Shown here: positions 2,137 through 61,175 of the stretch, in pieces | Layout of the letters: each line of letters begins with the position of its first letter | How positions within the stretch are numbered: position 1 is the first letter of the stretch | Assembly: GCA_009192285.1 (NCBI GenBank) | Contig: CM018604.1 | Coordinates: forward strand, 5,179,746-5,243,745 | DNA from: Morchella semilibera | Lineage: Eukaryota; Ascomycota; Pezizomycetes; Pezizales; Morchellaceae | Reading direction: 5' to 3' | DNA length: 64,000 nt | Made by a program: the position numbers and the translations under genes | The notes under the pieces: generated by a model | Told to the model about the DNA's origin: nothing | Seen by the model: only the letters and a program-made list of their open reading frames with translations | Database searches by the model: none

Positions 2137-4193
2137 ATTTATATGCTTAGAGATTTTTGAGCCTTTTCTAGGGTTCATGCTTGAGCCTGGCGGATTTGAT
2201 TGGACTGGATCGGATCCAGTCCAAAAGGCGTATTACATGACGAATCTTCCCTTTGTTTTTAATGACTGGTGGGGGCCTCTATTGGCATTTTCTTTTTGTT
2301 CCTGGCTGTTTTTCTTTTATAATGCCCCTCGATGATGATATCCGGTAGCAGTGGATCGGGTTGCTTTTTGATTGTTTTATACCTTGGTCTGCTGGCAGTG
2401 TTTTATTCTTTTGATCTTAACAGGGAGAGCCTAAGCTTGTTGTCAGAAATTATTATACGCAATTTAGCTTCCTACATTTTTGCGAGCTTGTGGTTGGTTA
2501 TCTGTATTTTATGAATATCCCCATGATGGACAGTAGAAGAACTTGAGCTTGTTATTAAGCATTGCTTTACATATACTTCTCGGTTTTATTGCTCTGAATA
2601 TGATAGAGGGGCCAGAAACCGATGAGAGTCGGTTTAGTTTGTTACCACTCTATAGAGTAGTTGCACTATCTCGTCAGCTCTAATCATTGTTTCGTGAATC
2701 TTGTCGAAGGAATAAATCTCGAGGGGAATCACCTAGCTCAAACGGAAAATATTCCGATAGAGAAATCTTAAGATTATTGATTTCTGTATAGATACATGTA
2801 GCTAGGGGTGAGTCGTAGCTGTGTCGAATTTAAGAATAGTGACCGAGTGAGATATAGTGATTAAAATGTTCAACTGTAATCACACTTTAGTGGTATTGGT
2901 ACACTCTAAGGGAGTACTGCAGGGCGTCCCGCGGGTTCTAGAAGAGGCAGTCATCGCAGGGAGAACATACTTCATGTTTATCTTTTCGGTGTGCTTTGTC
3001 GGGGGAGGGGCGGCTGATGGCTTCGTGCTTGGATCCTTTAGCTTAGGCCAGATCGCCTGACAAGTTATGTGTCAAAAGTTTCATCTAAAGGTGAGGAGTA
3101 TTTCATTTGCCATAGCCCCCATGAACAATGAGGAGCACCCCAGGCAATGAGTATCTGTATAGACTGAGTATCTGATAGACAGAGCATCTGGAGACCACTC
3201 GATCTGTGTTCCTAGTCCCGATAGCTTCAAAGGAAAAGTCCCACGGCCAAGTTCTTAAAATACTGGTGCGTGTGGTGATAGGAAATATCCCACTGCTAGG
3301 AGAGGGGAAGTATATAGTTAACTGCTACTTCATTAGAATCATTACTAAAAGTAGGGTGGTTTGGAGTAACTCATATAGAGTATTGGGCCTTTGGCTGTAC
3401 TAACTGTAATAGGGTCCCTCTTAGAGTATCTATCTCCCTTTAAGTATCCAGGTTTTTTTAAGTCCCGAGATTGTTCCTACTCCATCCCAGGAAAAAGTAT
3501 ACTTCTAACTCTACATATTTGTACCGCGCATAGAAAAGATCGGAGCTCACCGTGGATAGCGCTGGCGCCACGACTAACATATAAGACCATTACGACAACA
3601 CCCTGCTGCCTATATGTATTCATCGATTGTAGCTTGATGGTCTCAACCTTGCCCGGGGGGGGACGGTATCACCAACACCGTCGGTTTGATTCGCCTCCAA
3701 GGCAGAGGGAGCTCTATACAATTACATGTAGGTAAGGGAAGTCGATTTAAAGTAGGTACATGTAGTTTCTACCGCCTTGCTGTTACCCTACCCTCTAAAA
3801 CATCTTTAGCTTCTACTCTTATATGGAGGCAACTTCCCCCGAGACGCAGAGAAGACTCGAGGAGGGGGCAAGTGATACAGGCCGTGCGTATAAAAGCCAC
3901 TACTTAATACGTCCGCATCTAGAATATCATATGATTCGACAGGAGTTTGGTGTTCGTAGGCTAGGGGGCTTCAAACTGGCCCTAGCCAGGGCACTGATGC
4001 TATACTGTATAAGTGGTCTGAGTCGGACGAACTCACACTGTCATATCACACCTTTTCCAACAACCCTCCAAACCTCTGAATACCCAATACACAGATGAGA
4101 AAAGTACAATAATGCTGAACATTGATATATCTATTCCTGTTTCGTTAATCAAACCTATCTGCCCGGCGGTCTAGCTATACACATCTAGACAAT
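2137..4193. other. Intergenic, between DUF4048 gene and QNS1
   Basis: The two flanking genes converge here. No coding frame with family features is seen. There are three exact TACATGTA palindromes (2793, 3723, 3757) and a loose repeat of GAGTATCTG-like units near 3145-3190. Otherwise I see nothing. Confidence 0.5.
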
Positions 4194-7047
4194 CTACTCC
4201 TTCCTCTTCTCCCTCGCTGTAAGGGCCGCCACAGTCTCTTCAATCTTCTTATACGGCCAGCTAAACGCCGGATACAAAAACGGCCTCAAATCAAAGCTAC
4301 AAGCGTATCGTCAGCAAATTCATCCACCTCTTCGCCCATTCTCAAAAGATGGAGGAACTAACCGATTATCATCCGGACTATATTGCTCAGCATGATACGA
4401 AGGCGTCAGCACCGTCTGTTTATGCCTATTGATGGCATAATAGAAAAAAAAGTTCCGCGTCTTTGTTGCGATCTGCCTAGGGCTCATATGGTCGCCCCAT
4501 TCATGAAGGAGCTTATTGAACGCGCCCCATGGACCCAGCTTATCGTTCTTACGCAAGCGGCCAAAGACGGAAAGCTCGTCGTAGGTGAAGCCCATGTCTG
4601 CCTCGTCCGACTGTACGTACTCCTTTGTAATGGGCTCTAGCTCGGCGGTGGGGACGGCAGTGAGGAAATCGTGTAGGATAGGTATCTCGAACTTGTCTCG
4701 TGCATAAGCGATAAAGAGTTTCAAGTCTGTCTTTGAGATTCCACCGATAGGGTTGATGTCGGCGCTCGAACAGTCGTATTTGGTCAGGTAGCCACGGAGA
4801 CTGCCATTTAGTCATGTTAGAGAGCAGATGTGGGGTGCTGATGATCTAGTAGACATACCATTCATCAACATTCGCACTCCCTAGGACCAGTAATCCACCT
4901 TGCTTCCCTCGTACCCAGGGCAGTAGCTGCGCAAACAAATACGCCAAGACCATCCTCAACCTTGCCTAAATATTTATTGCATCATCAGAAATCACTCGTT
5001 AAATTGACCAGTCAGTAGCGCGCCACACACCTGTATGTTCTGTAACGCCAAGTTCTCAGTTTTCGAGCCACCATGGACCTTAAAAACAGGTTTCTTGCCC
5101 GTCACAAATGCGAAGAGATCTCGCACAGAGGTCACAATTGTATCCATGTTCAGGTCAATATGGTACGCCCCAATTGCCTCTGCGAGCTCTTTGGCACGCT
5201 GGCGTGTCTCCTTGCTCGAATTTTCAGTGCCCATGAAACATGTATGGAAGATCCGGCCCGCCAGCTCCTGGGGTGTCTTAGGCACCCATGTGGAATCATC
5301 TGGTTCTCCCGTAATTCGGCGGGCATCCTTGATGACCTGTTCCGCTGCAGAGGTAAGACACGCTCCATTAGTTCTGCCTAGAATGTAACCCAAATTATAC
5401 TCTTGAAATGCAGCTTACATCCACTTTCACAGGCCTTAACGACAAGCCTGCACATAGAGTGCACGATCGTTGCAGTAGCACAGCTATCAATGCCACCACT
5501 TAGAGGTAAGAAGTATCCGCTCACCCCTCCACACCTGCGCAAGTAGTCCCATAGCCAGCAGGCCGGGCCCAGCGCGATCTCCTCCTCTGCAGTGTGGAAG
5601 TGTACATCAATGGCCTTTGTAGGCATTATGGAGAGATCCACTGTGGATCCTTCCGCAGAGATACTCATGTCCGCTTCAATACGCGGGTATGGTGTGTTCT
5701 GGATCGCCTGTTGGCCCCGCGAGGGTGCGAAGCGGTAACTGCGCACTTCCTCGAGATCCACGGTGGCAGTCACAACTTCCTGGACAGCACAGCAGGAGGT
5801 AAGAGAGGTGGGTATGCGTGGTGGTAAGGTTGCGGCTACTTACAACATCTTTGAGGGAGAATTGGGAGCCTTGCGCAACGATACGACCGTTGACACCGAT
5901 GATGGCAGATCCGTCGTAGTACAAGCGGTCACCGTCGCAGCCTTGTTGGTTTGCATAGAGGTAAATTCCACCGCACTAGAAGACACGGTGAGTTTGTTTC
6001 CGCTGGAGGCTCTGTATCACTTTACCTTTTTTGTGGCCTCAGTCATCAACTCGATCCTAGTATTCAACTTCCGCAGTTCATGATGACTTCCGCTGGAATT
6101 AGTCATGATCTCAATACCATCCAGCGACATGCCAATGTGTGGGCTTTCAATTCAATCAGTATACCACCACAAGTCAAACACCCCAAACTACCATTCTGCA
6201 ATCCAGATCACATACCTATTTGGCGTAAATAGCTCCTCACAAGTCTCCGCCGCAATGCACGTATCCAGCGTCGAGATGGCCGCATCTCCAAACGAGACCT
6301 TCCTCTGCCCTGTGATCTCCGCAACCATTCTCGGAAGGTAGTACTCCTCGACATATTTTACCCTCCCCCATCCAGTGAAGTATCTCATCTCACGGTAGTT
6401 ACCATCGTTGGCAAGGTAAAGCTTGGGGCGAATGAGGAGGATCCTCCTATTGTAGGCGATGATGCGGCAATTGTAGCGGACATTCTTGTGTCCAACAGGC
6501 CTAAAGAGACCAATGGCTCGTTAGGGCCAGCGGGTATATAGACAAGGGGCTAGCGTGGGTTGCATACATTCCAATATCGAGGAGGATATCCTGACAGTCA
6601 TCATGTGAAATGATCTTAACGAGCATCTCCCAGGAGTGAAGGTAGGTGTCGCCTTTTCACATTGACTCTAGCTTAGCAATGTAGTCCCGGGAATGAAGCA
6701 AACAAACCAGTTGAAGGTACCTTCCAGGAAATGATCAAGGCACCCATAACCGCTACACAATCCCAAAAGAATAAGTCCGACACTCCCCTACTATCCTTGA
6801 AACACTCGGCCATACGCACGTCACCTCCAGCTCCGGACCGACCCTCAACGACGCACCGGCCTTTTTGGCAATACGGATACTCTCAATAATACGCTCTGCA
6901 TTCCCCTCAAAATCGAGAGCCCACTGGTTGAGGGAGCTGCACACAGCACAGACAAAATTTTATTTATATTAGCTCTATATTTCATGAAAGAAGTAGACAT
7001 AGAAGGTCGAAAAGTTACCATGTTGCCAAGATTGCGAGATGTCCCAT
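4194..7047 (-). CDS. QNS1: Glutamine-dependent NAD(+) synthetase
   Basis: This enzyme makes NAD+ from deamido-NAD+, ATP and glutamine, the last step of NAD biosynthesis in the cytosol. Twelve exons are predicted: 7047-7019, 6936-6820, 6752-6721, 6652-6568, 6500-6216, 6143-6026, 5975-5844, 5779-5419, 5344-5031, 4965-4859, 4800-4363 and 4296-4194. They join in phase to 706 residues; the yeast enzyme has 714. The N-terminal glutaminase (nitrilase fold) shows the catalytic triad at Glu45 (GPELEV), Lys114 (RPKLYL) and Cys175 (AETCEELF). The synthetase domain has the ATP pyrophosphatase loop LSGGIDSCA and the blocks [17 protein letters not shown] and [14 protein letters not shown]. Exon 1 codes only for MGHLAILAT and exon 3 is 32 nt, so simple ORF finders miss the start. 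For intron 8 (5418-5345) I chose the CTGCAG acceptor because it restores [11 protein letters not shown]; a nearer TAG would add 11 residues. Confidence 0.96.
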
Positions 7048-9588
7048 TTTCAAAAGGTGGTGATTGTTTTTTCTGCTGCTAATCGGTCAACCGATCAATT
7101 AGTGGACAGGACAAGACAGCCTAAATGAATGACGCATGCGGGGGCAGCCCTATCGATAAGGCCGTCCGGGTAACTAACTAACTTTTCTCCCCTCTCACGC
7201 TAATGTAAATAGCGAACTCTCGGTTCAGCCACAGGATCTCACTCGGCCCGGGCCATGGTCCACCATTTCCTATTTCTGCTCAACCCAGCCACCCAGCCCA
7301 GCAAGGATATCCAAATAAATGTGCGCACACGCAGGGGCGAGGAGGAAAAGAGAATAACTAATATTTCTATCTAACGTCAGCAGCCGTCGCTAATCGGGGT
7401 CCTTGGGGGGGGTCTAACCGCTGCAGGATAGCGTACATAAGGTATATACACACATAGCACTTTAAGGTGTTCTACGTAGACAAAGTTCGAGCTCGGACTC
7501 CGGGTGATGATTAATTATGATTATGATTATGATTATGATGATTGATGATGATGTAGATGGTTACTCTGGGGTAGGTAGGGTTTGTAATAGCTATGACAAT
7601 CAAGGTCGGGAACCTGGGGGAATGAATGCACCGTCGGCCAAGCTATGTGCCCATACTCTCCATTATTTCCACCACCCAAGCGAAGCTATGATGTAGATCG
7701 CTGACTGACAATTTGTATGCCTTGGATCCTTTCGGTGTATATAGATTTTTTAGATTACTTTTCCTAATTTCCACATAATGGCTAGTAGTAACCGTATGCG
7801 TTGCACTACATGTCAGCAAATCAAACTTAAGCTACTTAACATTCACCCTCACGCGCCTGTGTCGTCTTCACGCCTTCTCACTCGTACCTATATTTGCGGC
7901 GGATATGGCGCGCACACGCACGGGCACTGTAGGTACATGTATGTACATGTAGGTACAAACCACCCGACCGAACCGACCGACCGACCGACCCGACCGACGG
8001 GCCCAAACCAGGCCCAAACCAATGTCAGCCATGAGATCTTCTGCCGCAACGCGACTGAAATTCGTACCCAGGATATTGACTGTCGTCGCCGCCCTAAACC
8101 TGATCACCTGGCCCAAGGGGGGGGGGTTGAGTATAATTGTAGGGTGGTGTAACTGCATGTATCCCTCCCTCCCTCACAATTTAAAGAGTGTGTACCTACT
8201 TACCGACTCTGCTAGGCATCATAGAGGCACAAGAAGGACAACTAGCCCTATTCACGCACCATCACCCGAGACAAAGGGGAGAAACTTTGTCTGTGCCATC
8301 CATCCCATTCCAATAATCTCATGTTCAAAGTAGGTACATACATGTAGGTTCGCCGCACACGTACATGTACCTAAGTACATAGTAAATACTTCTTTACATC
8401 TTGTACAGAGCATCCTCGCGTGAGATTATTATTGGAAGATAGAGTACAACCAACTGACAATGTCAGTGTCAGTTGCGCCAAGTTAGGTTTGCTGTTACTA
8501 CAACACGTACTAATGGTAGAGAGTTGAGAGTAAGTGCTGCCCCGTTTCGTTTCGTTTCGATTCCACCACAACCACAACCACCGCCGCCGCCGCCTCCCTT
8601 CAATCCAACTTGACCCAATCCACACGTCCGCATATTTTTCCTCCTATGTAGAACCCCCCCCCCCCCCCAACGGCCACCGACACGGCGAGACCCATCCCGT
8701 CCCTTTGGGACCTCTCGATCAAATACATATTATCCAATATACCCACCCCCCCCCTGGTCGCGGCGGTTAGCATTATATCATGTATCTATATAGAGCACTA
8801 TACCACGAAGCATATTGCAGCGGGTACCTAGCCTGCTAATTGTGCCAGAAGGGATATGTCAGGCTAAAGAAGCGATTGGCGAAAATAGGAAATAAATACC
8901 TGGGGAAATTAATTGGGTACATATGTACATGTATGTATATAGTATGAGAATGATGTATCTTGACATATCTCGACATGGGGGAGGGACCTGGGTATCGGGT
9001 TTCGCAGGAGGCCGTTAATAAATGTACTATACATGTACTTAGTTACATTGCGTACGTACTTACACTAACCAAAGAAATATTTACATGTAGCTAGTATACA
9101 TGTAAAGCGCTACTGGTGATGATTTGGGGGGGGGATGGTTAGAGTGTATATACATGTATGCTGTATATAGACTTGCTGCGGACGGCGGTTTGGGGTTATA
9201 GAGTACTAAGTTTACTATGACCAAGGGTTTACTATTTACAGGCCAACGACACGCTGATGGATAGAAATAATAGTGTACACTGCAAGAAAACCAACAGACA
9301 GAAACACAAAGGAGAAATCAGTGACCAATTGCCCCCTCCCCCCTCCCAACCCATTTGCCCAAACAAAAAAAAAAAAAAAAAAAAACTCCGTATGGTATAC
9401 CCCCCATTTGTTATTGCATGGTGACAAAGGAAAATGTTAAAAAAGCAAAGTAAAGTAAGTTCCCGTGCCCAATTCCCCCAGATCCAAAAACTCCCATGAT
9501 TAAAACTAAAAGAAAGATCAATAAATAAAAATAGAATAAAGGAAAAATCCAATAACCCCCCTTCACTACGTATACCGCCGGCCTGGCT
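7048..9588. other. Intergenic with microsatellites and palindromes
   Basis: No supported gene. The 2.5 kb hold a GATTAT/GATGAT microsatellite near 7505-7555, a CCGA tetranucleotide run near 7969-7998, a C run near 8656-8670, a CCG run near 8579-8596 and an A20 tract near 9365-9384. A dense cluster of TACATGTA palindromes is listed separately. QNS1 starts at one edge and the next gene ends at the other. Confidence 0.5.
7934..9158. repeat. Cluster of nine TACATGTA palindromes
   Basis: Exact TACATGTA copies begin at 7934, 7944, 8339, 8362, 8926, 9030, 9082, 9097 and 9151. Several sit in a longer context such as GTAGGTACATGTA or CTAGTATACATGTA. The octamer is its own reverse complement. Nothing else in this stretch looks like a tandem repeat of a longer unit, so this is a clustered short palindrome rather than a satellite. 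Its role is unknown. Confidence 0.8.
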
Positions 9589-13493: not shown

Positions 13494-16400
13494 AGTGTTA
13501 GTCCGAGAGAGCCCATCCGGCAAACAAAGCGATTGGCAAGTTTAGTTCCTTCAAACGAATGTATAGATCAGGTTGGCAGGTTGGATGGTTTGAAAGGTGC
13601 GAAATTCCTCTAGACTGTGTGTGGGCGGGCAACCAGATGATTTAAATTATTAACCCTCCATCAATTACACCTTAGACATGCGTAGCTGTATGTATGTGCA
13701 TGTATGTACCACTGATGTAAGTGAGTGATCCACCTCTCCCCCCCCCCCCCCTCCCATCATCCTTCGCACACGCAAGGCCGGGTGTTTTTAATTGGATCAA
13801 GGGTACCACTTCTTCTGAGCCATGGACTGCAGTGGAGGGGGAGGGTAGCCCTGGGCCCTGGCCCGTCTGCGGCGGCGTGTCGAGTCCACCGGCTGAGCCC
13901 CCCTCCCCATAATAAGCCTCTCTACAACCGGACCCGATCACCGCAAAGAAAACCTTCAGAGTTGAGGAAAGCGAGAGCGGTGAAACTTTACGCTTTACCA
14001 CGCGAATACTTACTCCCGAGGTGCTATCCGGGTGTTTCCTTTTTTGTGTAGTAGTTTTAGCATTAGTTTGCTACATTTACCTACTTTTACTACAATATAC
14101 TTACGAAGTGGCCTCAAGAAAAGTACCAGAAAAAGCAACTGTAATGTCATAATATTATGCAAGAAGGAAACGGCACCAATGATAACCATTGACAGGGGAA
14201 ACAAAGAAGAACTGCCGTTGATTGCTGAGCAGGTCACCGAACGAGTCAGCTAGGTTCAGTCATCGGGTCCCCTCCTTCTCTTCTTCTCGGCGAGGCTGCA
14301 AAAATTAAGTGTGGTTGACCACTCCATAAGACGATATCCATTATGCGGGGGGCTTGGATACGGAAAGAAATATTAGATGTGATACCGACATAGATTCCTA
14401 GCAAGACGGGCGGCTAAAGATCTTCTTACGTTTCGAACCTGCGTGCCTTTGCATCGGAGCCTCAACGTTAAAATAACAATCGCCAGGTACGGTGCAGTTG
14501 GGCGTAGCTACCTCACAGGCAGGCTAGCAAAATATCGATATCTTTCCTTCAAACTTCGTTATGCCTTTTTTCCCCCGCATCAAGAAGAGAACATGATCCT
14601 AGCACCCACGTTCGTGCCTAGATACCTACATGTACAACCGCTCCTTTACCAGCAGCTCAAGCCATGGGACCTCCATATCCGCAGCGGCAAATATCTACAT
14701 ATCTACCTTCATCAGGAATTCGCTTTAACGTCAAGTGGATCTTCGTCCGTGGGCGGCCCAATTTTTTCTTTAGCGAAATTGCGACTTTGAACTGTGCCTG
14801 CCCAGGACCAGGCCACGGCAAAGATATGGATCACGAGTGATCAATTACCTTTCCACAAGGCAAGCCTTACCAGGAAGACCTCGGCGTGATCGGCCTTCCC
14901 CTCTACAGCAAATACCTGTGCGTCTAACCGGATACAAAACCTCTTCAACAACTTAGTTACCAGCACCGTAGGTATTCGCGTCGACGGGAGGGATCGGTTG
15001 TGCTCCCACGGATTTCTGAATCCTCAGAACTACTCTTAGCGCATTCCAACTGCTTGGAACGATTGAGTCTCCTTCCACACTGGGTGAAATTTGCAACAAT
15101 CTGGAAAAAATCACCAGAAACACGGCTGACAGGATAATTGCATCTTCTTCTGATTTTGTCGTGCCTACGCAACCGTCTATCGAGACACCTACATGAGCCT
15201 GACATCAATCATATTAGCAATTGCAACGTACCGAAAATAAAGATGGCTAGATACGGATGCTACTAATATCCTGAACGACCCAGCTCCTCCTCAAGCCAGA
15301 AGCAGGCAAATAACGGCCCACACTATGCGAACACCGTTTGTGCAGTACATAGATTACCCTCACTGAAGATCAGGGGCTCGATAAGATCTAAGCCATGCTC
15401 ATGGCAGACCATGATGAGCACGAGCTGCTGCTCTTGCACAATTATCAAATCACTCAATATTCTACAAGCTTATAGCCTAGGCGAGAAGTACGTGCAGTGA
15501 CATCAAGGGGGGGCGGTTCCAAATTTAACTAATTATACGCAAAGGTATTTTGGTTTTATGGTTTGTAGCGGATGAACCTCACCATCCCTGCAGGGCCGGC
15601 TGTTGACTATGGCAACCTCTAGCATGGTGATCCTGGTGGGCCATTACCCCAACGAGCTTGCAGTTGCCTGAAGAAAACAGAACGAGACGTTTGGCGTCTC
15701 CCCGCTATGCTACGAAGCGAAAATTGAAGGATACTACTTCTGGCATTATCGTAGATAAACCCACGGCGGTTTAGATAATTGAGTTGGGTATTCACACCTA
15801 TCCATTGGTAGGCCTGTTGGACAACTATTTTAGGAACGAGTGGGGCAGAGAAGTTGCGTAGAATTCCCCTCTTGACTTACTATTTGCATACGGTGCAGCA
15901 ATAAGTGTGTGGGGCTGGGTACGGACTATAATGAGATCATTAGAATCTCTATTATATCTCATCGTTTTGATATTGGTTCCAGAGGAACGGTTAGGCAATG
16001 CCAAATGGAAGCTCTACAGTGGGCCATAGCAAAACCATAGTATGTAGAAGTAAAAAAAGTAAGAAAAAGTAAAAATGAAAGACATGTGCGTTAAGTGTTC
16101 TTACTAGGTGGTGTAGTCACGGGGTGAAACAGGTTGAATCTTAAAAAAAAATCGTTAATATTAAAGATTTCATATGTCCACGATAGCTTTGTTATATATT
16201 TGTTTGGGCCCTTGACGGGCCGAAATCCGCCGGAGGTTATTCTAGAGGCGCAAGCGTTTACCTGGAACTCATAGAAAGACTGTCGGTTTGAGGATATTCT
16301 TTGCGGGAGAAAAGCTTGTCCACCAGCAAATAAATTGCGTACAAGTTAAATGATAACGATATAAAAAATACACAAAGAGTCAGATAAGTATGCCCCCAAA

Positions 16401-16684: not shown

Positions 16685-19374
16685 ATGGCACAGACCTCGT
16701 AACTATCCCCCCCTCATTTTGGTAGCTTGTGCAGCAGAAGTTTGTCAAATGAGTTTTACCCACTGACTCTCCCCGCTATAGGACCAGTATCAACGTCAAC
16801 GACCCTGGGCTAATCACATTAGTCAATAAGTTGCAAGATGTATTTGCAACTGTAGGAGTATGTAGTTCTTCGCTCCCGCCCCTATCCACTATCTTCAGAT
16901 GTATGGGCACTTGTAACTACATGTAGGGTTGACTTGGCAATGTCATAGGTCCAAAATCCCATCGATCTACCTCAGATCGTAGTTGTAGGCTCTCAGTCGA
17001 GTGGCAAGAGTTCAGTGCTAGAAAATATCGTCGGGAGAGACTTGTAGGCTGCCGATTTACCCTCTATAAAATAACGCCCGAATTTCATACTAATATATTG
17101 AAATTCTTAGCCTTCCTCGAGGTACTGGTATTGTCACGAGAAGGCCATTGGTGAGTAGTATATGTGTTTTTATTCAGAAGAACTATATCTAACCATGTGG
17201 TAGGTATTGCAACTTATCAACCGCCCTGGTACTACAAACAGAATAAATGGCGCAAATAAGGAGGAGGATGAGATGAAGCAATCAGATGTTGGGGCAAACC
17301 TCGACGAATGGGGCGAGTTCCTTCATATCCCAGGTCAAAAGTTCTTCGACTTCAATAAGATCCGAGACGAGATCGTGCGGGAAACCGATGCGAAAACAGG
17401 AAAAAATCAGGGAATCTCACCCCAGCCCATCGGTCTCCGGATCTATTCACCGAATGTCTTAACTTTGACCCTGGTCGACCTTCCTGGATTGACTAAGGTG
17501 CCTGTCGGTGATCAGCCGAAAGATATTGAGAGACAGATCAAGGATATGGTTCTCAAGCAGATTTCTAAAACAAACTCAATCATCTTGGCGGTCACTGCTG
17601 GTAACACCGACTTGGCAAACTCCGACGGTCTTAAGCTTGCAAGAGAGGTTGATCCCGAAGGTCAGCGAACTATCGGTGTCCTTACCAAAATTGATTTGAT
17701 GGACGAGGGTACCAACGTTGTTGATATTCTTGCTGGAAGGGTTATTCCTTTGCGGTTGGGATATGTACCAGTTGTCAACCGTGGTCAGCGTGATATTGAG
17801 AACAGAAAACTCATTTCCTCGGCCTTGGAACATGAAAAGGCGTTCTTTGAGAACCATAGCGCGTATAGGAACAAGCATGCCTACTGCGGAACACCTTTTC
17901 TTGCTAGGAAGCTTAATATGGTATGGAGTATGGCCCTTAAATACTTTACAAGTGCCATGACTAACAAAACTCGAACCTTTAGATTTTGATGATGCACATC
18001 AAGCAGACTCTTCCAGATATCAAATCTCGCATTTCATCCTCTCTCTCGAAATATTCAGCTGAGCTCGCAACACTTGGAGATTCACTCCTTGGCAACAGCG
18101 CTAACATCATTCTTAACATCATCACGGAGTTTTGTAATGAATATCGGACTGTGCTTGACGGCAACAACCAGGAGCTCTCTAGCATTGAGCTTTCTGGCGG
18201 TGCACGTATTAGTTTCGTTTTCCATGAGTTGTACGCAAATGGTGTAAAGGCTGTAGATCCGTTCGACCAGGTCAAGGATATCGACATAAGAACCATTCTT
18301 TACAACTCATCTGGATCTTCTCCAGCATTATTTGTGGGAACTACTGCCTTCGAACTTATTGTAAAACAGCAGATCAAACGGCTAGAGGACCCTAGCTTGA
18401 AGTGTGTTAGCCTGGTCTACGACGAGTTGGTCAGAATATTGACGCAACTTCTTCAGAAGCAGGTTTGTGCATCCTAGTTCCAATTATAACGCGATAATGC
18501 TCACTGGGTTCGTAAACACAGCTTTTCCGGAGATACCCGGGCCTAAAGGAGAAATTCCACCAGGTCGTTATCGCGTTTTTCAAGAAAGCGATGGGTCCAA
18601 CCAATAAACTAGTCCAGGATATGGTTTCTATGGAGTCTTGCTATATCAACACTGGGCATCCCGACTTTCTCAACGGACACAGGGTAAATTACCATATCAG
18701 CTTATTACAAGAATAAGTAGTATAACTAATGGGTGTTTTAAGGCGATGGCTATTGTAAACGAGAAACATAACTCCTCCAAACCCGTACAAGTTGATCCAA
18801 AGACCGGTAAACCTCTCCCAGGGGGCGGCAGGGATTCGCCAAATCCACAAAGCCTGGACTCTGGTCCTGATAATGGCGGTTTCTTTGGCAGTTTCTTTGC
18901 AAGCAAGAACAAAAAGAAGATGGCCGCAATGGAGGCTCCACCGCCTACATTGAAGGCATCCGGGACTTTGTCTGAAAGAGAGAGTATTGAGGTTGAGGTT
19001 ATTAGTAAGTTCTTCTGACTCGCCGAAAGCATTCGAAATTGAAACTAATACATGGACAGAGCTTTTGATCAACTCATACTACAACATTGTTAGAAGGACT
19101 ATGATTGATATGGTGCCCAAAGCTATTATGCTGAATCTAGTCCAGTATGTTACAATCCACCCATCTTCTAAAAAAATCCCCAGCTTTAACATTTCTTTTG
19201 AACAGGTTGACGAAAGATGAAATGCAACGTGAGCTTTTGGAAAACCTTTACAAGTCTGATGAACTAGACAACTTGCTTAAGGAGAGCGATTACACCATTC
19301 GGAGAAGGAAGGAGTGTCAACAGATGGTCGAGTCGCTAACCAGAGCATCTGAGATCGTGAACACTGTTAGTTAA
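16685..19374 (+). CDS. VPS1: Dynamin-like GTPase Vps1
   Basis: This is a large GTPase that drives membrane fission in vacuolar protein sorting, endosome recycling and peroxisome division. Ten exons are predicted: 16685-16698, 16782-16857, 16949-17043, 17111-17150, 17204-17920, 17983-18462, 18522-18683, 18743-19004, 19060-19144 and 19206-19374. They give 699 residues; yeast Vps1 has 704. Exon 1 is only 14 nt (MAQT plus two bases). The GTPase domain shows G1 GSQSSGKSS (residues ~44-52), the G2 threonine in [11 protein letters not shown]3 DLPG and G4 TKID. The stalk follows ([20 protein letters not shown]), then a variable insert rich in Gly, Ser and Lys (residues ~530-590), then the GTPase effector domain ([23 protein letters not shown]). 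There is no PH domain, as expected for Vps1. The start [20 protein letters not shown] fits Vps1 better than Dnm1. Confidence 0.96.
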
Positions 19375-39493: not shown

Positions 39494-41820
39494 AGCCTTC
39501 ATTCTACTAGAGAAAGCAAAACGAAAGATTTCCGGCGTTGGGAATTGTTGCTGTTAAAGTAAATGAAATGTCGGCATCACAAGTTATTTTATTTTTCCTG
39601 TTTTGTGCTCTTGGCAACTCATCTTTTATACTACTTTCTTGGCATGTTGTTTCTGTTGAAGTTACACTTATTTTCTTCTACTATTTCCTTGCTGCTTCCC
39701 TTTTCGCTTCTTGATTGATTGACGTGCAAGCGGCGTACTTTCCTTCTGACTTGTCATGGTTAATATCAAAAGAAATGACGTCAGGTGCACGACTCCCATC
39801 GTCAGCATACTCGTTCTAGGCCATACCCTCGAAGCGATAGTGGTGGATTACTCGAGGCCTCAACTTTCACCTAGAAATATAGGCGGCGTTCGTCCCCATC
39901 ACTGTGGTTTCCGGGTAGTGGCTGGGATTTGCGATTTATACATGCGTGATGAGTGTTACTATTTCTTGCTATTTCTTTATTTCTTTCGCGTTTTACAATT
40001 TGTTTCATAGGTTGGCTGGGCTTGCTTTATTTTTGTTGTGTGACGATAGGGAAAGCTGGAGGCCAATGCCCAGAGGTATGGGGTGGGCGGTGGCGGGGGG
40101 GTAGAGGGCAGGGGGGGAAAATTCATAAGGAGGCGGAAATGAACAGCACAAATTGAGATTTCAAAAAAGCTAGACAACAAAAAATCAAAATGCGCTGGTT
40201 CAGTCGCTAAATGTTATTATGGCTTATATGGGCGGGGTGGGCCGGGGCAGGGTAAGATGGTGGCGGAGGTGGTTTTTCCCTTCTATTTTTTTATCTTTTT
40301 TTCTATTCTCTTGTTCAGAAATAGACTCGGGGGACGGGTGAAGTCGTATTGTTTGTTTCTTATGTTTGCCTCTTTTCGTGAAGAGAAAGATTGGGTGTGA
40401 AACGTGAAGGGGTTTACATATCGGACTTTTGATCATTACCTTTGCTTGGCGCCGGCCAGCACTTGTAATGATCTTCAGGACAGGTTCTTGTCTTGATCTT
40501 GAGGGCAGTGTTTACCAACTACATAAGATCTAATCCTTATAGTTACATGTGTATGCGCTCTACAGTATGAGCGCAGCGATGTACTTAAAAATAATCCTAG
40601 TGGGGTATGTATGGGGGAAAAAAGTATTTTACCAGGGCTATCATTCAAGAAGGTCTCTGCCTAGAATAACTTCTACGCTGCGCATCCCCGGTGCATGTGT
40701 AACTGTCAATGCACTGTGATATACATCTACGTAGGGAACCTTGGTGAAGGTGTAGGGCCATAACATGTTGGTACCCGTGTACCCCCCCCCCACTCTTCTC
40801 TCCCCCCCTTCCACTCACATTCATAGCTACATATATACATAGGCACATCATGGTAATTAGGTTTGGGCACAAGAATAAGTGTGAATTATGTGGGGTATGT
40901 ACCCCTATATGTTGTTAATCAGACATCATGTATGCCGTGGAAGACATCCCAGCTTTCTATGTGGCACTTCGTAGGACAGGTAAAGTTTCTGGATTATATA
41001 AGGGTTTAATTGGCACTGGTTCGCGGTTTTTACGTCCACATACGTTGTGTGGGGGAAGAGGGTAAAAGACCAAGTGAATATAGATCCCGGAAATGAGCCC
41101 AAATTAAACATGACTACTGATTCACTGTAAGAACTAATTGGGGAAGAGCCGTCGGGTAGAAACATTGGTCACCCTAGTTGGTTCATATAGATATAATGAT
41201 ATTGCATACATGTAATAATGGTATTAGCACTAATACTTTAGGGCGCTTATAAGCAGTCCTTTTCTGGAGGGCTGCGCCAGAGCGTGAGACCTGTGTCATG
41301 GCTTAAAAATGGCCGAGTTGCTAGTCAAGTTCTATATGAACACCACACCAGAATAGCCATATATATGGCCAATTACCAAACTGGTAGTTCGCACTTATTG
41401 AATAACCCACACTGTGGTGTTATAGACTACAGATACATATAAACTTTACTCCCAATATATCTGTTCTGTTCCGTATATAAAGCTTTCTAGTTCACGAATA
41501 GGACAGCCTACCGGCGGAAGAACATGAGCGCTCCACTCACGAACTGCGAGACACCACTAGAGGGGCGGGGTATATATATCAGTTAAGTACACCCGCCTTT
41601 GCCCTTGAATTAACATATATTCCCACTTATCCCTTGGGCGTACGTTAATCATCTACATGTAGTTCGGTTTATAGCCGGCCCCGCTATACCAAGAGGACCA
41701 CCAAAGCCCAAACCGCTATACCTTGCCCATTTAGATCTTTTTCCGGACCTGGTGTTTACCTATAAACTATAGACCCAGCTGCAGCCCATATACACAAATC
41801 CTGCTAAGATAATCCATGAG

Positions 41821-41923
41821 TACAGCGGTAGGTAATAAGTGATGGAACATAGTGATGCCTGTTTTGGTAAAACGCCACCAACATTTGGTCAGGGCGTTCC
41901 ATCACTTATTACCAGTCGCTGTA
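41821..41923. mobile_element. MITE-like inverted-repeat element, TA ends (type 2)
   Basis: Arms of 28 bp at 41821-41848 and 41896-41923 are inverted copies beginning TACAGCG and sharing GGTAATAAGTGATGGAAC, with three adjacent mismatches between these two blocks. Both ends are TA. The interior is 47 bp with no coding frame. Total length is 103 bp. The TA-CAG start is like Tc1/mariner or pogo-type DNA transposons; the superfamily is inferred. Confidence 0.65.
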
Positions 41924-42899: not shown

Positions 42900-44700
42900 G
42901 AGTGTTACATGTAAATAGACGAAGTCCCATGGGTCTAACGTGTTCGGTCATAGAACGAAGAAAATGGGGCATCCCGTCTGCTCTGCCCAACCCAAGCTTC
43001 GTATCGCCCAGTTAGTACTGCAGTGGGAGACCATGTGGGAATCCTGGGTACCGAACTCGCGCCTTCTTTTTGACGATTTATTATCCACAGTTATTAGAGT
43101 TATTAGTGGTTGCAAAGCCACAAAATTAACACCGCCTAGAGTACAAGGGTCTAGCGGAAATCATTCTGAAATCTGCTTGTGTAGGTATATGCAGGATGAT
43201 AGGTATGCAGTATATTCATTTACGACCCCAAATAGTTGGCTGGCCAATTGCAAGGTCACCAAGCACCGCGTCTCCTGCTACATACCTCATACATGTAGTC
43301 ATTTCCAGTTCCAGATGTCAGAATGTTGAAACCCTAACCCATAGTCCAACCATTTTGCCTCTCAGAATACTATGATGAAGCTCGAGCTAAACAAATTCTA
43401 TTGAGACCCGGAATATTCTCTGGGACTAAAACCAACCCCTACATGCCCCACTAGCTGCCACCAAGAAGTACAACTATAACTATTACCCCCAAGTCGACCG
43501 GCTGCAGGAGGATTTGCCCAAGGGCGGTGTTCTTGCTCCGGAATCATTGGCACAAGTTACCCCTCGCCGCTTTTTATATCCCACACCCCGATTCTACTGC
43601 AGGCCGTATCGCATCGAAAGATCAGGCAATGACAGGCAACGCCCAGGCTGGCGGCTTCCGGAAGGGCTATGCCCCTACCCGAGACCCCGTGCCGAAATAG
43701 TAGAGCTATTACTCGCCCCATAGGTCATGGCCCAAGGGGGTCTATTTGTGATGCATGGGTTGGGGTTGGATACATACATGTAGTATATATGGAAAGCAAA
43801 CCTTTCTGATCGAAAGTAGACCCTATATGTAAAGCTACCATCGAAATGTTTGCAATATAGCGGCACCTATAGTATAGGAGTTGGAATAGTGAGTAAGCAT
43901 TGTCCGGAGGAGGAGAGAGGGTGAAGGGTTGTTGTTGCTCGAGGGTTAGGTCTAGTACCAACCACCGCCTCCACCCTCCAACGGTCTAAACTGATACAAA
44001 CGGTGTGGTACCGGTTTGTGTGGCGGTTGGCGTAATGTTTGTTTGTGTACGGTACTATATATATAGGGCCTTCTTCAATTCGGGATCGGCAATTCGCAGC
44101 TAGGAACCAATTGTTACAATCTACCATCTGCATCTGCTGCCACCGTCCCGTTGGGATTGGATTAACATGCCATCTGCATCTGCTACCGCAGCCGCCGCCG
44201 CCGCCGGGACCGATAGGGCCCGGCCCTATCCCCAGCCTGTGAGGATCACGCCCCTTCTGTGTAGCAAGGGGTTCCCCGACAAGCCCAAGACTATCGCAGG
44301 CGCATTAATGGCCAACCTATACGCATCCCGCCCCGAAACCCCGACTCCCAAGGTCTCGAGTGGCGCTGACCACCTCGACATACAGTGCCTATAACCGCCT
44401 TGTTGCGGCAACAAACGCTACCCGCCACGCATCACGCTCCGCCTATGCCAACCCGGGCTACGGGTTCCTAAAGCTGGCGGGGGGTATTTTTGGGGACGCC
44501 GCACCCATTGGCTTTAGGGTGGCACGGGGAGATGGACTGTCTAACTAGGGAGCAGTGGGGTGAGTTGGGAGATGTTTTATAGCCTCGGTTGGGATGATTC
44601 GGTTTCATTGGAGCAATGCAGGTATGCCTACGGGAAGGCATTTGGTTTTGTTTTTTTTTGTTCCTTGAATCGAGTGATGAGTTATGAGCCGCATCTGGCG

Positions 44701-44815: not shown

Positions 44816-47047
44816 TCGGAGCTCAGAAAGACGCATTGTTGAACCTCTACCCCACCTACACAACCCACAGATACCCATCGATCCGAATTCATCCCTGCCA
44901 AACCCAAAGCGCCATTATCAACAGAAGACCAGGAAATAACAGGTCCCGGATCCATAAACACAACCCGCACCCCCCCCCCCCCCCAAGAGCATAATGCCCT
45001 CGCGCAGGAACACTAACGCACCAATGCTGAACAACGATCATCCCTAGAAACCTGCGATACTGGGTTAGGGTTCCTCTCCCATGGGGCCTGGACCTATACG
45101 CCAACCCACGGCTGAGAGCTTCGGGTATGGGCACGTGTATGCATACCCCCTGAATCCAGCATTACTAAATTCTATCTTACCGCACGCAGGCCTGAAGGGA
45201 GGGTGTGAGGGGGGGTGTTGAGGCCTGGCGCGGCCCCCCCCGATTGAACCCTTAGTAGGGAATTAGTAAAAGAAAAATGTCGCTGGCAGAAGGTAAGGTG
45301 GGCGATATGCCAGGTGTTTGTTGACTGCGATATGTGGTAATGGCAGTCTAGCTGTTGGACATTGTAGCCTGAGGCTAACAAGGCCAGGATCAGCATGGGT
45401 GAGTGAGATTTCATGAGTGAGAATATGACGGGGATACGATCATTGATACAACATGGGGGCATAAGCATAAAGGAAACCATGCAGTGCATAACAACCTTGC
45501 AGTACCCCAGCACTGGAAAATATCTCACGGATTTTTAGAAACACATATTTAGCCCTTTCAGACACCATTAAATAGGTGATGTCGTATAGACTGCCCTCGA
45601 GCTCTAACCAGTGCAGCTAGGATGGGCTAGCTATAGCGCCTCCGGGGGACCAGCTTGAGCCATCAATATATCCAACGGGATAGATCAGAATACCGACCTA
45701 CTGGCGATAGCCAACTCAAAATAATCCCTACCATAATAACAACACATCAGCCCCCGTTACTATTTGCCATAGGATCATGGGAGGAGATCTAGAGAAGTAC
45801 ACAACTCATGAAGAAAACCTAGTGCATGGCCGCATTTATCAGCCACTAGCTAGTCCCCATGGCCAATACCCATCACTCTACAACACCAGGATGCGAATCA
45901 CAAACTGACAGCTCCGATTAGCTACTCGACCCTCTTTTCTTTTCAATAGGATGACCCGGCCGTGTTTGGTGAGTTGTCTACCCTCAGGAATATGTTTATA
46001 TCTGCCGCATGAATACATGTATCGATATTCCATGCACCCGTTTGCCACGTCGACCAGCCCATGACCGAGGAACAGGAAGGCCGAGAAGCATCCAGGACCA
46101 GTAATATAATGCTGGAGTAGACTATACTAGTGTCATGGCAGCCAAAGACCTTGTCTGCGATAAAACGGCCCCCACGCACGCGCAATTATGCGCCAAACTA
46201 GCTGGTCGACGGCACCCTATACATAACTATATGCAAGCTATGCTCTGGGAGTACCCGGCCCAAGTAAATAGTTTTAAAGGTTTCCTGCCTACCATCCAGC
46301 AACCAATTTCAATTCCCAGGCCTATCAATCAGCCAGTCGTTTGTTTCTGCAGTCAGTTTCAAGCCCTGGTTTAATTACCCCTATTTCCCAAATCCCACCA
46401 ACCCAACCGCCCACCGTCCCCGCCCCCCCCCTGGCAGCTAGGTATCTAGATTCTGATAAACGATAAGCCCCCACTGGCCCGATCTATATCTACACCACCT
46501 ATCTGGTATCTCCTCCGATAAGATTGATTGCGATTAACCGTGCAGCGCCGATGCAGATGAGATCTCAACAGACCAGAATAGCTAGCGCCCGCACTGCGCC
46601 CATGCATACATGCATCTACTAGATTCTAGTCCGGTCGGGATAGGATAACTGTTAACCCCTGGCGACTTTTATATTAGTTTGGAATTAGGCCCCAGGCAGT
46701 ATGAATTCGCTAGCTATGTGGACCGTTGAGATCGTGGGGCCCATATGTAGATATAATATCTCATGTTCAGGGCTGAGCTTTCTCTTGGGATTATTTATTG
46801 GCTACCACCATGGTGCGTGGAGATTTGCCTCCAAATACCCAGCTAGCCAGCGCTTTCACGAAATCAATAGTAGCCAGCCATTCTGGTAGTGTCTGGCGCT
46901 TGAAGCATTTATCCACGATTTAAATTGTTCTTTACACAGTCCGATAGGACAGGGCGCGCGCCACATGTGCGCCATTACCAGCCGGCCTGAAACGGCCAAA
47001 ATACACTACATATACCTACCTTTTCTGCTCTACGCATGGCCGGTCTC

Positions 47048-53851: not shown

Positions 53852-55762
53852 GGGTTATAATGACTTTGGGTGATGGGAGCAAGGTTTACGATGGAAACGT
53901 AGTTAATGTCTCTTTTGTTTTTGTCCTAATCATGAGCGAATATCCGATATCAGTAATGTAAGCTTGAGAACAATACAAATTAATGAATAAAAAAATAATA
54001 CGCTGTTGATCATTGACATGTCCCCCCCTCTCTCTGTGACAAGTGAATGCACGCCTAATTGGTTACCACACCAGAATCCTGAAACCCAGGCATTCCTACT
54101 CCAAAAATCAAGGAAATGGAGATGTCTATGCAGGCCACGTGTAATGCTTGTTTTCCTCGGCCGAATTCAATTTAATCCTGCAACTGCATTGCATAACCAG
54201 ACCAAACATCCTTCCCTACCCCCCAGGCGACGATCGATTCCAGAAGGATAACCCCAGCAATCGATCATGTTTCTCTACATATGACGAAATATCTCGTCAC
54301 AAGTTAACAAAACTTATAGACAGTGTGGCGAGGCAGCACCGTCATCGGCCGAGATCCCGTCGGCCATCCGACAAGCGGGCATCGTTCCATCCATTCCGCC
54401 CACTCCATCCAGTCCAACGCATCCAATTCATCCAAATGCAAGCAAGCCATCTATCCAATCAAACCCTGTTTATTCTAATCTATGCACCGCTACTTTACTC
54501 TGGGCTGCCTTGCTTCGCTGCTCGCTTAAAGGAGGATCCCTGTTCCGCGCGCTGGTTGGTTAGTCTGGCCGCATTCGTCATGCGAGTGATACGGTGTGAC
54601 GGCACAGCTGTCGTTGTCGTATGATCGACGCGGTAATTGGGGCAGCCACCGGACGGGAGTGGAGGTTGTAACGTCGGGTGGCGGGCTGGGCGGGGTGGGG
54701 TGGGGTGGGGTCGGTGGGGTGTTTTGTGTGTGTGTGTGTGGGGTTGGTTTAGTCAGGTGGGTGGATTGGTGGGTTAGGGGTGCTTTTGGGGAAGTGGGGC
54801 AGTTTGACTCGGGGCCCAGATGGAGTGGTCTTTTTTGCACTCTTTCATTCACTCCTAGGGCGACGCTTTCTTAGGTGGTCATACATGTACATAGGTACAT
54901 GTCATGTACCCTAGACCATAAGTTACAAAGAAGACGTGGAGCGCGGCGATCGGGTGGACTTCCTTCGGAGCTACGGTGTGGTGGCTATAGATAGTAGTCG
55001 AGACCTTGACGTGATGCAGGAACCCGATTGATTCGTTTCGGCGCACTGGGTGGGTGTGGTAGCCAATCATAGTAGGGAGGGGGGGGGGGGGTTGAGGGGT
55101 TGGTCAAATCAAAGTTTTGTTGTGTGTGGGCAAAATCTAGGTGGTTAGGCAAACCAAGTTTTGGCTTGGGATCAGACAGGGCAGATGATTCTGGTTCAGA
55201 GCGTAAAGAGGAGGGTTGGGGGTGACGTTGGTGCTGAATTGAAGCTTCCTTGGCCGTGGTCTCAGTTTGTGAATACATAGGATCTGCCATGCATGAGTCT
55301 GATCCTCCTCCTCCTCCTCCTCCTCCTCCTCAGTTGTGGTGAATCCCTGTAGAATATATGCAGAGCAAGCAAAACACAGCCCCCCTAGTGTAGAAGCATA
55401 CGTACTCAACTGATAGCCCGCAAAAATCATCCCTAAATCGAATCATTGACACTCGCCCACCAGCCCTTCAGCACCAGATATCACTCGTTACCCGTACACA
55501 CCCAAACCAAAACTGGTTAGCCCCTCTACCCCACCACCACCCTCCTTCCCCGGAGAACGGGCGGGGCGGCGTCGTTCCTTGGAAACTTCCCTGCAACCAA
55601 GCCCAACGTTGACCTTATCTGCTCTATGTACGTCTGCATGAGCGAAGCATCTGTGGTTCTAGAAGTCTATTTAGACACCCCACACGCTTACACTTTCCCC
55701 ATATTCGAGAGACTCTCGGGAGGGTCGGCTAGCTGGCTGGTCTATGTACTGGTACATAGAAG

Positions 55763-55850: not shown

Positions 55851-55860
55851 CATCTAATGT

Positions 55861-55910: not shown

Positions 55911-55917
55911 AGCCAGT

Positions 55918-55947: not shown

Positions 55948-57656
55948 TCTGCTTAGTACTCTTGAATACTCTACAGTGTGCGAAGCCCTCAGTTTGAGGC
56001 CAGGGATCATGCATATGGTAGTAGGGTTGAAACGGTAGATGTGAGTTGGCTGATTCTACTGAGCGCTGGGTGCAAGTAGGTATTTGATGCGTGGTAGGTC
56101 TTGTAATTGGCGGTCGTCTGGTCATGTTTGCAGGAATAGACACGCACGTGGGTGTTGTCAATTCTCTCTCGGGGCTCTGCCCGTTCGTGGAGCGCGGTGG
56201 AGAGGCATGCCTATCACCAGGAATATTCCCGAAGCACACGAGCACCAATTAACGTATATACGTTGTAGTGGATCTCATCAATATTGTAATTAATGGCTGG
56301 CTACCAATGGACGGACTGCTACCCGCAACCGTTCAACCCCAATCGCTGAACTCAAGGGTATCCTGTTTCTGCATACCTTGTAGGGTGGGGCATCGGCGCT
56401 TGACTGGCCGTATCTACCCTTTCTATGCTTGCTTTGGCGAGTGCAAGGGTCTTGCACCGCTGACCGTTCGAATTTCTATATGGATATCCCGAGTCGGGCT
56501 GTCCGAGCCCAATCGATGGTATATATCTCTACTTCTATTAATCGGAGCGCAGGAAGGGGGTGTTGGTATTGGAGGAGGGACGAGGAAACAAGGCAGGCGG
56601 ATCGATGTATCTCATGGCCAGCACGGGCACTGTCGAATCACTAGCAAAGCTAGAGCGCAAAAGATAACAATAAATATCAATTGACCCGTGATAGCCACCG
56701 GTCACAGCTGTCGGCTTCGACCTGAACCGATCCTCATTTCCCACAAAAAAGCAGCCTCTACTAGTATAGATTATGATCATATATCTAGAGCGACTGCTCT
56801 CGGCAACCGCTTTATCGTGTCCCAAATGGAGCGTTTCCCTATCTACTAATTACACGCAGAGCACTTATTGGGACCAATAATAATGGCTTGGCAACTCCAT
56901 AGCTAGCGGCAAATAAGCGCCGTCTCTGTGCCACATCCTTTTACTACACGATATTCGACTGCCAAGTTTGCCAAATGGTTGCACAAGCGGGTATTGACGG
57001 ACACTGGGTGTTGACAGACAGGGGCTTTTTGGCCAATAAGAGAATAAACTAGGCCTGGCTGTTTCTCTTTGGTGGGATCCGTCAATACCCAGTATCCATC
57101 ATCACCCCGTGAACGACAGGTCAACTGTGGAAGCTGTATTCTACTCATTCTACTTCCTTTAATATCTGCCCTGGGATAGAGATTTAGTATAGTCTAAGTT
57201 ACATAACTTACTCTATAATTTAATCAGCTTTGGGTTCCTCTGTAATAGTTAATATGGCTCTTAGATGTATTTATCTCCTTCCTCTACGCAGCACCAATCC
57301 CCACTACTGCCGAGCCAAGAAGTAGGTAGGCCTCACGCCCAAGAAATTAGACGAAGCTGCATAAAACACGTACATGTACCTACATACATACCCATCGTCA
57401 AGCTGACTGACATCTGTACCTCTCAACGTCCACACCATCAGTCCCTCTCATTGGCCCAAAATGGCGAGCATCAATGGTTACATGCAGAATTTAAGTTTCT
57501 GTGGCCCATGATTCTATTTATACTCTCGGACCTCCTCCCCCCCTCCACCCCAAACTACACAAGTATATGTAGCCCTCACCCACACCACACACTCCAGCAT
57601 AACGAACACCACTACTACTACCGGCCAGCATACGCTAATAATCATATTTCACAATA

Positions 57657-59185: not shown

Positions 59186-60210
59186 AATGGATCGAGGGCA
59201 GTTTGTCGGTGCTGAGGCCTTGGATGGGGAGGGGGAGGTGTGTATGGTATGTATTTATAATTGTATGGGCTCTACAAATGTCACGTGTTTTAAGGCAACC
59301 AATGTGCGGAATTCGGAAATATAGGGCGCAGAAAATACCTACATGTAGATCCCGGGCCAGCTTCGATCACTAGAATATAAGTATATTGTTGGGATTAATA
59401 TTGCGAGCCGAGGAAACTATATCCTCTCTGTAATAATTGTGGCAAGGTCTACTTAGGCGTTCAGTAAAAGGTCGTGAGAAATTGCCCCGTTGCAACTATT
59501 ATATTATGTCATTACTGCATTTGTGCCAAGGCAATTACTGTTATATAAAAGGGCAGCTAAATTCCCTCCTGTATTAGAAGAGGACATTAAGAATTACTTC
59601 CGCTATAATAGTCAACATTTCGGGCATATATAGGGCTAGATATACCGAGTGATAACTGTGACTGATTTATTAATCATATCCTATCACTCGATGAATGAGT
59701 CTTCAGATATCAGGTCTTATTTATTTATCTATCTATTTATAGTACTTCAGATACTAGATAGAGGTGCTTCGACTTCTTTTAAGAGATATAGAAATAATTT
59801 TTACCGAGACGCAGGGAGAGAAAAAGTCCCTCCTAACCTGTATGCAAATATAGGCCTAAATTGCTAATACAACGCTAGTGACTAAAGAAATTTGACAAGA
59901 GACCACACAGTACGTTCTAGCTAGTTAAGAGTCAATTCGGATGTATTACTGGTTGTCTATTCCCGTACCAGCACTCGTAGACTCAACGACATAGAACCAC
60001 AGAGGAAGAACTATCGATGATCATTTAGAAAGAGAGAAGAAGAGATATGTTTGCTACAGAAACCGTCAACAAAAGGCAGAAAACTTTGATATACTCCATT
60101 CCTCGTAGAATTATACCTCGGGGCTGTTGGGCTACCTGGACCGGACTGTTAGTCAAAGCCTGGACTTGAGGACCTTGAGAATGCTGACCTTAAATTGATC
60201 TTAGTTTTAT
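59186..60210. other. Intergenic between the two orphan paralogs
   Basis: AT-rich spacer of 1 kb with no supported gene. One TACATGTA lies at 59340. The short frame at 59649-59867 has low complexity and was not called. Confidence 0.45.
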
Positions 60211-60741: not shown

Positions 60742-61175
60742 GGCTGGTAGACGCAAAGGTTTCGAAGCTTTAGTGTTTGTTGAGGGCTCGAGCGCAAGAA
60801 GGGTTGAGGTGGAGAGGCTTTATCTCCCGAGCTGCCGCCTTGATTACTAACTCTATAGGTCTCTACCTACCGCCATAACCGCTATAACTATTAGCAGATA
60901 TGATCTACACCATTCAACCAATCGTTAAAATTTGCTTCCTCAGCATTTTACTGGCAGGGATAACTAGAGTAGGTACAGTTACATGTGCCTACATGTATCT
61001 GTACGCATAGCAACGGCCAAGGGAATTATGAGATAGGAAAGGTTTTTAATCATGCATGCCCACTCGAGAAACAAGAATAGATCTCAAATCTTCGTAAATT
61101 GATATTTCCAAACCGATCAAACGCTCCAAAAGCCCGCTCAAGCATTAACCAAATCTTAAAGCATGTAATTAAACT
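60742..61175. other. Intergenic, short
   Basis: Holds one TACATGTA (60990) and the promoter of orphan B. No gene is seen. Confidence 0.5.

Follow-up and report, generated by a model that had tools for sequence, protein, structure and literature searches.

A palindromic octamer in large excess across the genome of Morchella semilibera, and the symmetric flanks that accompany it

The palindromic octamer TACATGTA occurs 32 times in a 64,000-nucleotide stretch of Morchella semilibera contig CM018604.1 (hereafter the window; C2:5179746-5243745), and we counted 22,206 copies in the whole genome (56.76 Mb, 23 contigs). The order-0 expectation for the window is 1.09 copies, which scales to about 960 copies genome-wide, so the excess is about 23-fold. 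The octamer carries a flank on both sides, giving the full unit ANNTACATGTANNT, often in the form TANNTACATGTANNTA, and its copies are nearly absent from predicted coding DNA. This symmetric flank is new here. We propose, tentatively and at a little short of an even chance, that TACATGTA is the core of a dispersed symmetric site, ANNTACATGTANNT, for a putative sequence-specific DNA-binding protein that would act as a symmetric dimer. The reading that fits best is supported by the octamer excess, the independent symmetric flanks, the clustering of copies, their near absence from coding DNA, their depletion near it and an uneven enrichment of near-miss words.

Excess of the octamer over composition

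An initial annotation of the window had listed 32 copies and suggested that the word might be a genome-wide one. All 32 coordinates are exact, with none missed and none false, and the genome count, with composition excluded as shown below, bears out the suggestion. The reversed word, ATGTACAT, has 3,723 copies, a number that is itself inflated by overlapping TACATGTA copies. A sample made of the window and loci L001-L020 served for closer counts; it comprises 257 kb with 105 copies, or 237 kb with 98 copies without the two duplicate loci, L009 and L012. These two were excluded from the counts of coding overlap, gene distance, clustering, 98-copy flanks, near-misses and partial footprints, and were still included in the 8-mer ranking, the 105-copy flank profile and its independence test, the upstream and downstream profiles and the inverted-repeat search. 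The assembly seems to contain duplicated contigs, which makes the genome totals slightly too high. The stretches sampled from C9/C10 and C12/C13 are 99.7-100% identical, with no mismatches and with gaps in the second pair only, and C21/C22 are likewise linked by paired matches.

Once homopolymers are left out, TACATGTA is the most extreme 8-mer of the sample (210 two-strand occurrences against 10.5 expected), and its 194 occurrences in the sample's non-coding DNA compare with 6.5 expected from order-2 statistics that mask the motif. The initial annotation had held that the signal would be mere composition if a higher-order background model predicted about 30 copies, or if other AT-rich palindromes were equally common. 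They are not: the runner-up among the window's palindromic 8-mers, ATATATAT, has 9 copies against 32, and the other TAxxyyTA palindromes are far rarer in the sample, where TATATATA comes closest with 82 against 210. Markov models of the window predict 0.8-1.6 copies at orders 0-3 and 5.5, 15.5 and 26.6 copies at orders 4, 5 and 6. The order-6 figure would favour a compositional artefact of AT-rich or simple-sequence DNA, but the high-order models are circular because their training words are largely TACATGTA itself; TACATGT, for example, falls in TACATGTA in 208 of its 240 two-strand copies in the sample's non-coding DNA. The genome counts, the 8-mer ranking and the motif-masked expectation together refute composition as the cause, and we give it practically no chance. 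Being a piece of a longer repeat is likewise ruled out by the lack of any clear base preference more than 5 bp outside the core. A 1.3-kb stretch with nine copies points the same way, its matches elsewhere being confined to one 103-bp stretch that contains none of them. To find a single octamer at some 20 times its expected number throughout a eukaryotic genome goes far beyond ordinary motif enrichment.

Symmetric flanks, near-miss words and position relative to genes

The initial annotation had described many copies as flanked in the forms CTACATGTAG or GTACATGTAC. Such copies exist, 2,029 (9.1%) and 1,486 (6.7%) of the 22,206, where equal flanking bases would give 6.25%; the emphasis nevertheless has to be moved outwards, to an A three bases and a T four bases outside the core. 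Flanking bases are A at -3 in 63-64% and T at -4 in 50%, with a weak A at -5 and little beyond. Over 196 TACATGTA flanks the two values are 64% and 50%, compared with 32% and 27% around 12 other TAxxyyTA palindromes, and both are near 0.3 around single TA dinucleotides; among the other TA-bounded words listed with at least 50 readings, A at -3 reaches at most 0.38. The flank therefore belongs to this core, as a protein contact surface would give. Genome-wide, TANNTACATGTANNTA occurs 3,317 times and its reversed form 251 times. The two sides behave independently, since TA stands on both in 15 of 105 copies against 14.4 expected (41 and 37 of 105 on the single sides), and the signature is alike for every base at -1. 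A preference that is symmetric and additive around the core in this way is what protein-binding sites have.

Words that differ from TACATGTA by one base are only modestly in surplus in the sample (143 against 78 expected), mostly through three transitions. Of the 24 possible words, a clear rise is seen in no more than three, each a transition type, and by class the counts are 76 against 26 expected for transitions and 67 against 52 for transversions. Two of the raised words keep the A at -3, namely TGCATGTA (18 against 5.2, about 3-fold; A-3 at 0.56) and CACATGTA (15 against 6.0; 0.57). The central change TACGTGTA is raised less than either, and this uneven tolerance of changes speaks for a bound site. 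Genome-wide, one-mismatch words number 38,153 against 41,979 for the reversed control, an unclean control that overlaps the motif.

Copies avoid coding DNA. Predicted coding segments make up 25.2% of the sample and hold 1 of its 98 copies (p 1.4e-11), and in the window they hold none of the 32, in agreement with the initial claim that no copy lies in a well-supported exon. That annotation had also put copies 16918 and 25077 in introns and copy 23368 in a doubtful ligase tail: the second does lie in a predicted intron and the third within an open frame, though outside predicted coding, whereas the intron around the first was left unconfirmed by the approximate gene model. For the 88 of 98 copies that entered the nearest-coding count, with distances out to 5 kb, the 45.8 kb closest to coding DNA (up to 400 bp away) hold 14 and the 111.1 kb farther out hold 74 (p 0.005), and beyond 400 bp density shows no clear fall. 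This thinning out next to coding DNA lends no support to a proximal promoter site. Crude profiles, with small counts, give 15 copies in 15.1 kb at 0.5-1.5 kb upstream of predicted starts and 3 in 16.0 kb at 1.5-3 kb, and about 0.8 copies per kb beyond 0.5 kb downstream of predicted stops. For the 49 of 98 copies that entered the gene-pair count, intergenic density, again crude, is highest between convergent genes (35 in 41.1 kb), with 8 copies in 13.9 kb between divergent and 6 in 22.7 kb between tandem pairs. Repeat-rich loci (L003, L005, L016 and L018) hold 2 copies in 40 kb. The copies also cluster: 10 neighbour gaps in the sample are 50 bp or shorter, against a mean of 3.26 and a maximum of 9 in 500 shuffles, and the first 100 copies of contig 1 show 12 such gaps against 2.3, including six of 6-14 bp.

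A bound site, a transposon scar or something else

If a protein reads ANNTACATGTANNT, probably as a symmetric dimer, an architectural role would be likelier than that of a proximal promoter element; phasing or opening of intergenic chromatin, a boundary, replication or meiosis would be among the options. Given the upstream peak at 0.5-1.5 kb, the role may instead be a distal regulatory one. A more specific version, a genome-scale iterated palindrome of a eukaryote, in which a putative ancient DNA-binding protein with a genome-structural role maintains, at tens of thousands of places between genes, a 14-bp symmetric site whose core is common to this fungus and oomycetes, appears doubtful to us, on balance rather unlikely. 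Several observations weigh against a bound site. The gene models on which the positional results rest come from a simple three-periodic Markov model (a hidden Markov model trained here with the motif masked) and are approximate. The depletion within 400 bp of coding DNA is odd for a usual promoter site, and the non-flat upstream profile, crude as it is, weighs against an architectural role. The commonest near-miss, TATATGTA (38 against 11.5 expected), has A at -3 at only 0.33, and transition-rich near-misses fit neutral decay as well. In addition, no candidate binder emerged from the one type of protein considered, as the sole Homeobox_KN match has Ile50.

The closest precedent for the word itself lies outside the fungi. 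Passages of two papers describe motif-1, or M93, of Phytophthora as the identical octamer, propose it as a homodimer site and place it upstream of 12,070 genes in three species, where work on it concerned promoters and linked it to expression in hyphae and at infection stages (PMC3520976, PMC3597505). In Phytophthora infestans, according to part of one of them, M93 has 4,150 occurrences in promoters, and 19.3% of induced genes and 13.9% of non-induced ones have it no more than 500 nt from the start (PMC3597505). Chance would give about 0.8% with even base composition; by this estimate the non-induced genes carry an excess of about 18-fold, and the octamer excess is therefore general there too. 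By analogy, the shared word would speak for a binding site. The two systems differ in that the Phytophthora motif belongs to oomycete promoters and the fungal copies are fewer close to genes; the passages on the Phytophthora motif make no mention of the symmetric TANN flank found here. A literature search that covered part of the papers containing the octamer found no described role in fungi, as the initial annotation had stated. Work on MoIsw2 also refers to a palindromic motif, in passages that do not spell out its letters (PMC11481914). Homeobox_KN proteins have been proposed as the Phytophthora binder because Irx homeodomains prefer TACATGTA, as a passage of the same work puts it (PMC3520976). 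Here, seven Homeobox_KN candidates scored in the genome yielded one match. An exon-like stretch next to it reads WFINARRR, with Ile at homeodomain position 50, if there is an intron between the two. We take such a protein to be of the MEIS/TGIF type, reading TGACA, and not of the WFANARRR type. No TALE protein with Ala at position 50, the residue that we presume to matter, was found among the seven candidates, which makes an Irx-type TALE binder unlikely in this genome.

Of the three origins raised by the initial annotation, a binding site and a structural element fit best, and a small-repeat scar is mostly contradicted for the elements that we sampled. TA-inserting elements with CA..TG ends that are cut with a 2-nt stagger leave TA-CA-TG-TA, so each TACATGTA could be the excision scar of a Tc1/mariner element, accumulating where selection is weak. 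The A at -3 resembles the Tc1/mariner target preference. We examined 45 elements and kept 40, 8 long ones and 32 of a 109-bp family of miniature inverted-repeat transposable elements (MITEs); of the other five, one was a duplicate and four were not bounded by TA at each end. The genome has 69 matches to DDE_3 transposases; 11 transposase loci were scanned, of which 8 have clear terminal repeats and L021, L023 and L067 do not, with L026 left out as a duplicate of L025. At one locus an intact frame of 361 aa has matches to both DDE_3 and HTH_Tnp_Tc3_2. The 32 MITE copies were found by similarity to one copy; of the family's 126 candidate places in the genome, 40 were scored. In its terminal repeats the family is similar to L024 and L025, both long elements. 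The scar test thus covered Tc1-type elements and this MITE family; pogo/Fot1 types (DDE_1) were not searched for.

All 40 elements end in CA..TG, so that the octamer is exactly TA, the terminal bases and TA, and their targets favour A at -3 as the motif does (49 of 80 flanks; the long elements have it in 13 of 16, and T at -4 in 9 of 16). The same eight letters are named, in part of one paper, as a rare Tc1 excision footprint of Caenorhabditis elegans (PMC3520976), and the octamer reappears in Phytophthora. Near-misses that are mostly transitions, and a central change, TACGTGTA, at about 1.6 times the scaled sample expectation, also agree with scars that decay. The base at -1 does not. Every one of the 80 element flanks has G at -1 (all 32 MITE copies kept stand in G-TA..TA-C), compared with 42 of 196 motif flanks, and the scar that these elements predict, GTACATGTAC, is only about 1.5 times the independent-flank expectation genome-wide and occurs 3 times in the 98 sample copies against 4.5 expected. 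From this it follows that at most a minority of copies come from the tested families, and a minority may indeed be their scars. Nor do imprecise footprints clearly accompany the octamer: TACAGTA (27 against 21) and TACATA (199 against 119) carry no flank signature. Neutral decay would raise TACGTGTA about as much as TGCATGTA, yet genome-wide it stays below its reversed control (915+807 against 1,178+1,178). Donors are scarce in the sample as well, where five CA..TG inverted-repeat pairs comprise 2 pairs of motif copies, 2 that are the MITE and 1 candidate element in L006 (6588-7480). Unlike the C. elegans case, the 40 CA..TG elements here stand only in G-TA..TA-C, and copies far outnumber donors in the sample. 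For the Tc1-like elements and the MITE family sampled here, scars are thus mostly rejected on the G at -1 and the missing partial-footprint signature, and we regard a scar origin of the octamer in general as unlikely, though by no means negligible. If the copies were scars, the genome would record tens of thousands of transposon excisions.

Like HIP1 of cyanobacteria, TACATGTA is an octameric palindrome at very high genome-wide frequency, but HIP1, as part of one paper describes it, is another word, bacterial and linked to DNA methyltransferases (PMC4390886), whereas ours belongs to a eukaryote and is nearly absent from coding DNA. In form, HIP1 is the closest analogue. The roughly 20-fold excess and wide intergenic scatter resemble such highly iterated palindromes, and the octamer is over-abundant in a distant eukaryote too, which would suit a drive-like element, a word that spreads or is shielded through some bias (in gene conversion, in repair or by an enzyme that recognises it), as is discussed for bacterial uptake sequences and HIP1, and whose copies need not each be useful. 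We saw no enzyme or mechanism for this, a methyltransferase not having been searched for, and the flank preference would require a reader anyway. HIP1, moreover, is not known to be nearly absent from coding DNA, as TACATGTA is, and we consider a drive-like origin improbable. A signal in RNA has a slimmer chance still. The word would read UACAUGUA on both strands and might end stray intergenic transcription, since it contains UGUA, a half-site that polyadenylation and PUF proteins use; the lower number of copies near genes and the high crude density between convergent genes would agree with this. Nothing about an RNA signal, however, would require a palindrome with symmetric flanks in the DNA, and only 6 copies lie within 400 bp past predicted stop codons (18.8 kb).

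If TACATGTA is read by a protein, this suggests that an abundant DNA-binding protein has gone unrecognised; TANNTACATGTANNTA would be a ready bait for it and the TACGTGTA core a matched control. The over-abundance in Phytophthora makes the choice between site and scar testable across kingdoms, and the outcome bears on how the published motif is read.

Repeats, individual features and minor observations

The candidate element in L006 was left out of the 40-element flank count. As in many motif flanks, A stands at its -3 and T at its +3, which together with its ends and C-TA/TA-G context would favour a scar origin. It contains a member of a second MITE family; its listed frames are all shorter than 90 aa, with no family search run on them, and no second full-length copy was found in the genome. 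The second MITE family is ruled out as a source of TACATGTA, as its ends cannot yield the word. We also observed that 8 of the 40 Tc1-type elements (L027, L030, L035, L037, L043, L052, L059 and L068) stand at the TA of a TACATGTA, about twice the rate among WGTACW sites (26 of 273; p 0.03), a signal of insertion into existing copies too weak to build on.

Table 1 Copies of the octamer in the window and repeat elements discussed in the text (window positions unless a locus is named)
Feature	Position	Strand	Evidence
TACATGTA copy 1	2793..2800	.	exact match
TACATGTA copy 2	3723..3730	.	exact match
TACATGTA copy 3	3757..3764	.	exact match
TACATGTA copy 4, start 10 bp ahead of copy 5	7934..7941	.	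exact match
TACATGTA copy 5	7944..7951	.	exact match
TACATGTA copy 6	8339..8346	.	exact match
TACATGTA copy 7	8362..8369	.	exact match
TACATGTA copy 8	8926..8933	.	exact match
TACATGTA copy 9	9030..9037	.	exact match
TACATGTA copy 10	9082..9089	.	exact match
TACATGTA copy 11	9097..9104	.	exact match
TACATGTA copy 12	9151..9158	.	exact match
TACATGTA copy 13	14627..14634	.	exact match
TACATGTA copy 14 (intron per initial annotation; unconfirmed by gene model)	16918..16925	.	exact match
TACATGTA copy 15	22351..22358	.	exact match
TACATGTA copy 16	23297..23304	.	exact match
TACATGTA copy 17, in open frame 23342-24838, outside predicted coding	23368..23375	.	exact match and gene model
TACATGTA copy 18, predicted DNA ligase gene intron	25077..25084	.	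exact match and gene model
TACATGTA copy 19	27566..27573	.	exact match
TACATGTA copy 20	28176..28183	.	exact match
TACATGTA copy 21	28369..28376	.	exact match
TACATGTA copy 22	28679..28686	.	exact match
TACATGTA copy 23	41207..41214	.	exact match
TACATGTA copy 24	41654..41661	.	exact match
TACATGTA copy 25	42906..42913	.	exact match
TACATGTA copy 26	43290..43297	.	exact match
TACATGTA copy 27	43775..43782	.	exact match
TACATGTA copy 28	46014..46021	.	exact match
TACATGTA copy 29	54882..54889	.	exact match
TACATGTA copy 30	57371..57378	.	exact match
TACATGTA copy 31	59340..59347	.	exact match
TACATGTA copy 32	60990..60997	.	exact match
MITE, 99 bp, CA..TG ends between two TA; copy of 109-bp Tc1-type family; served the scar test, no part of the motif	41823..41921	+	inverted repeat, similarity
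MITE-size inverted-repeat element, TACTCGGGG..CCCCGAGTA ends	30425-30562		
Further MITE-size inverted-repeat element	55753-55861		
Candidate element, 893 bp, 19-nt CA..TG inverted repeats, C-TA..TA-G flanks	L006 6588-7480		
Second MITE family, about 165 bp, GACG..CGTC ends between TA	L006 7124-7289		about 40 places scored genome-wide

Genes for dynamin, DNA ligase and kinase fit a fungal source, as does a partial 5.8S rRNA-like sequence of the fungal type. That sequence, a degenerate fragment with a score below the family cut-off, lies at L020 1501-1672. In the motif-masked sample another palindrome, GCTCGAGC, is also over-represented, with 26 two-strand occurrences against 3.3 expected. ATCACTCG (36 against 4.5) and CCGAGTGA (21 against 3.5) are raised as well and may stem from repeats.

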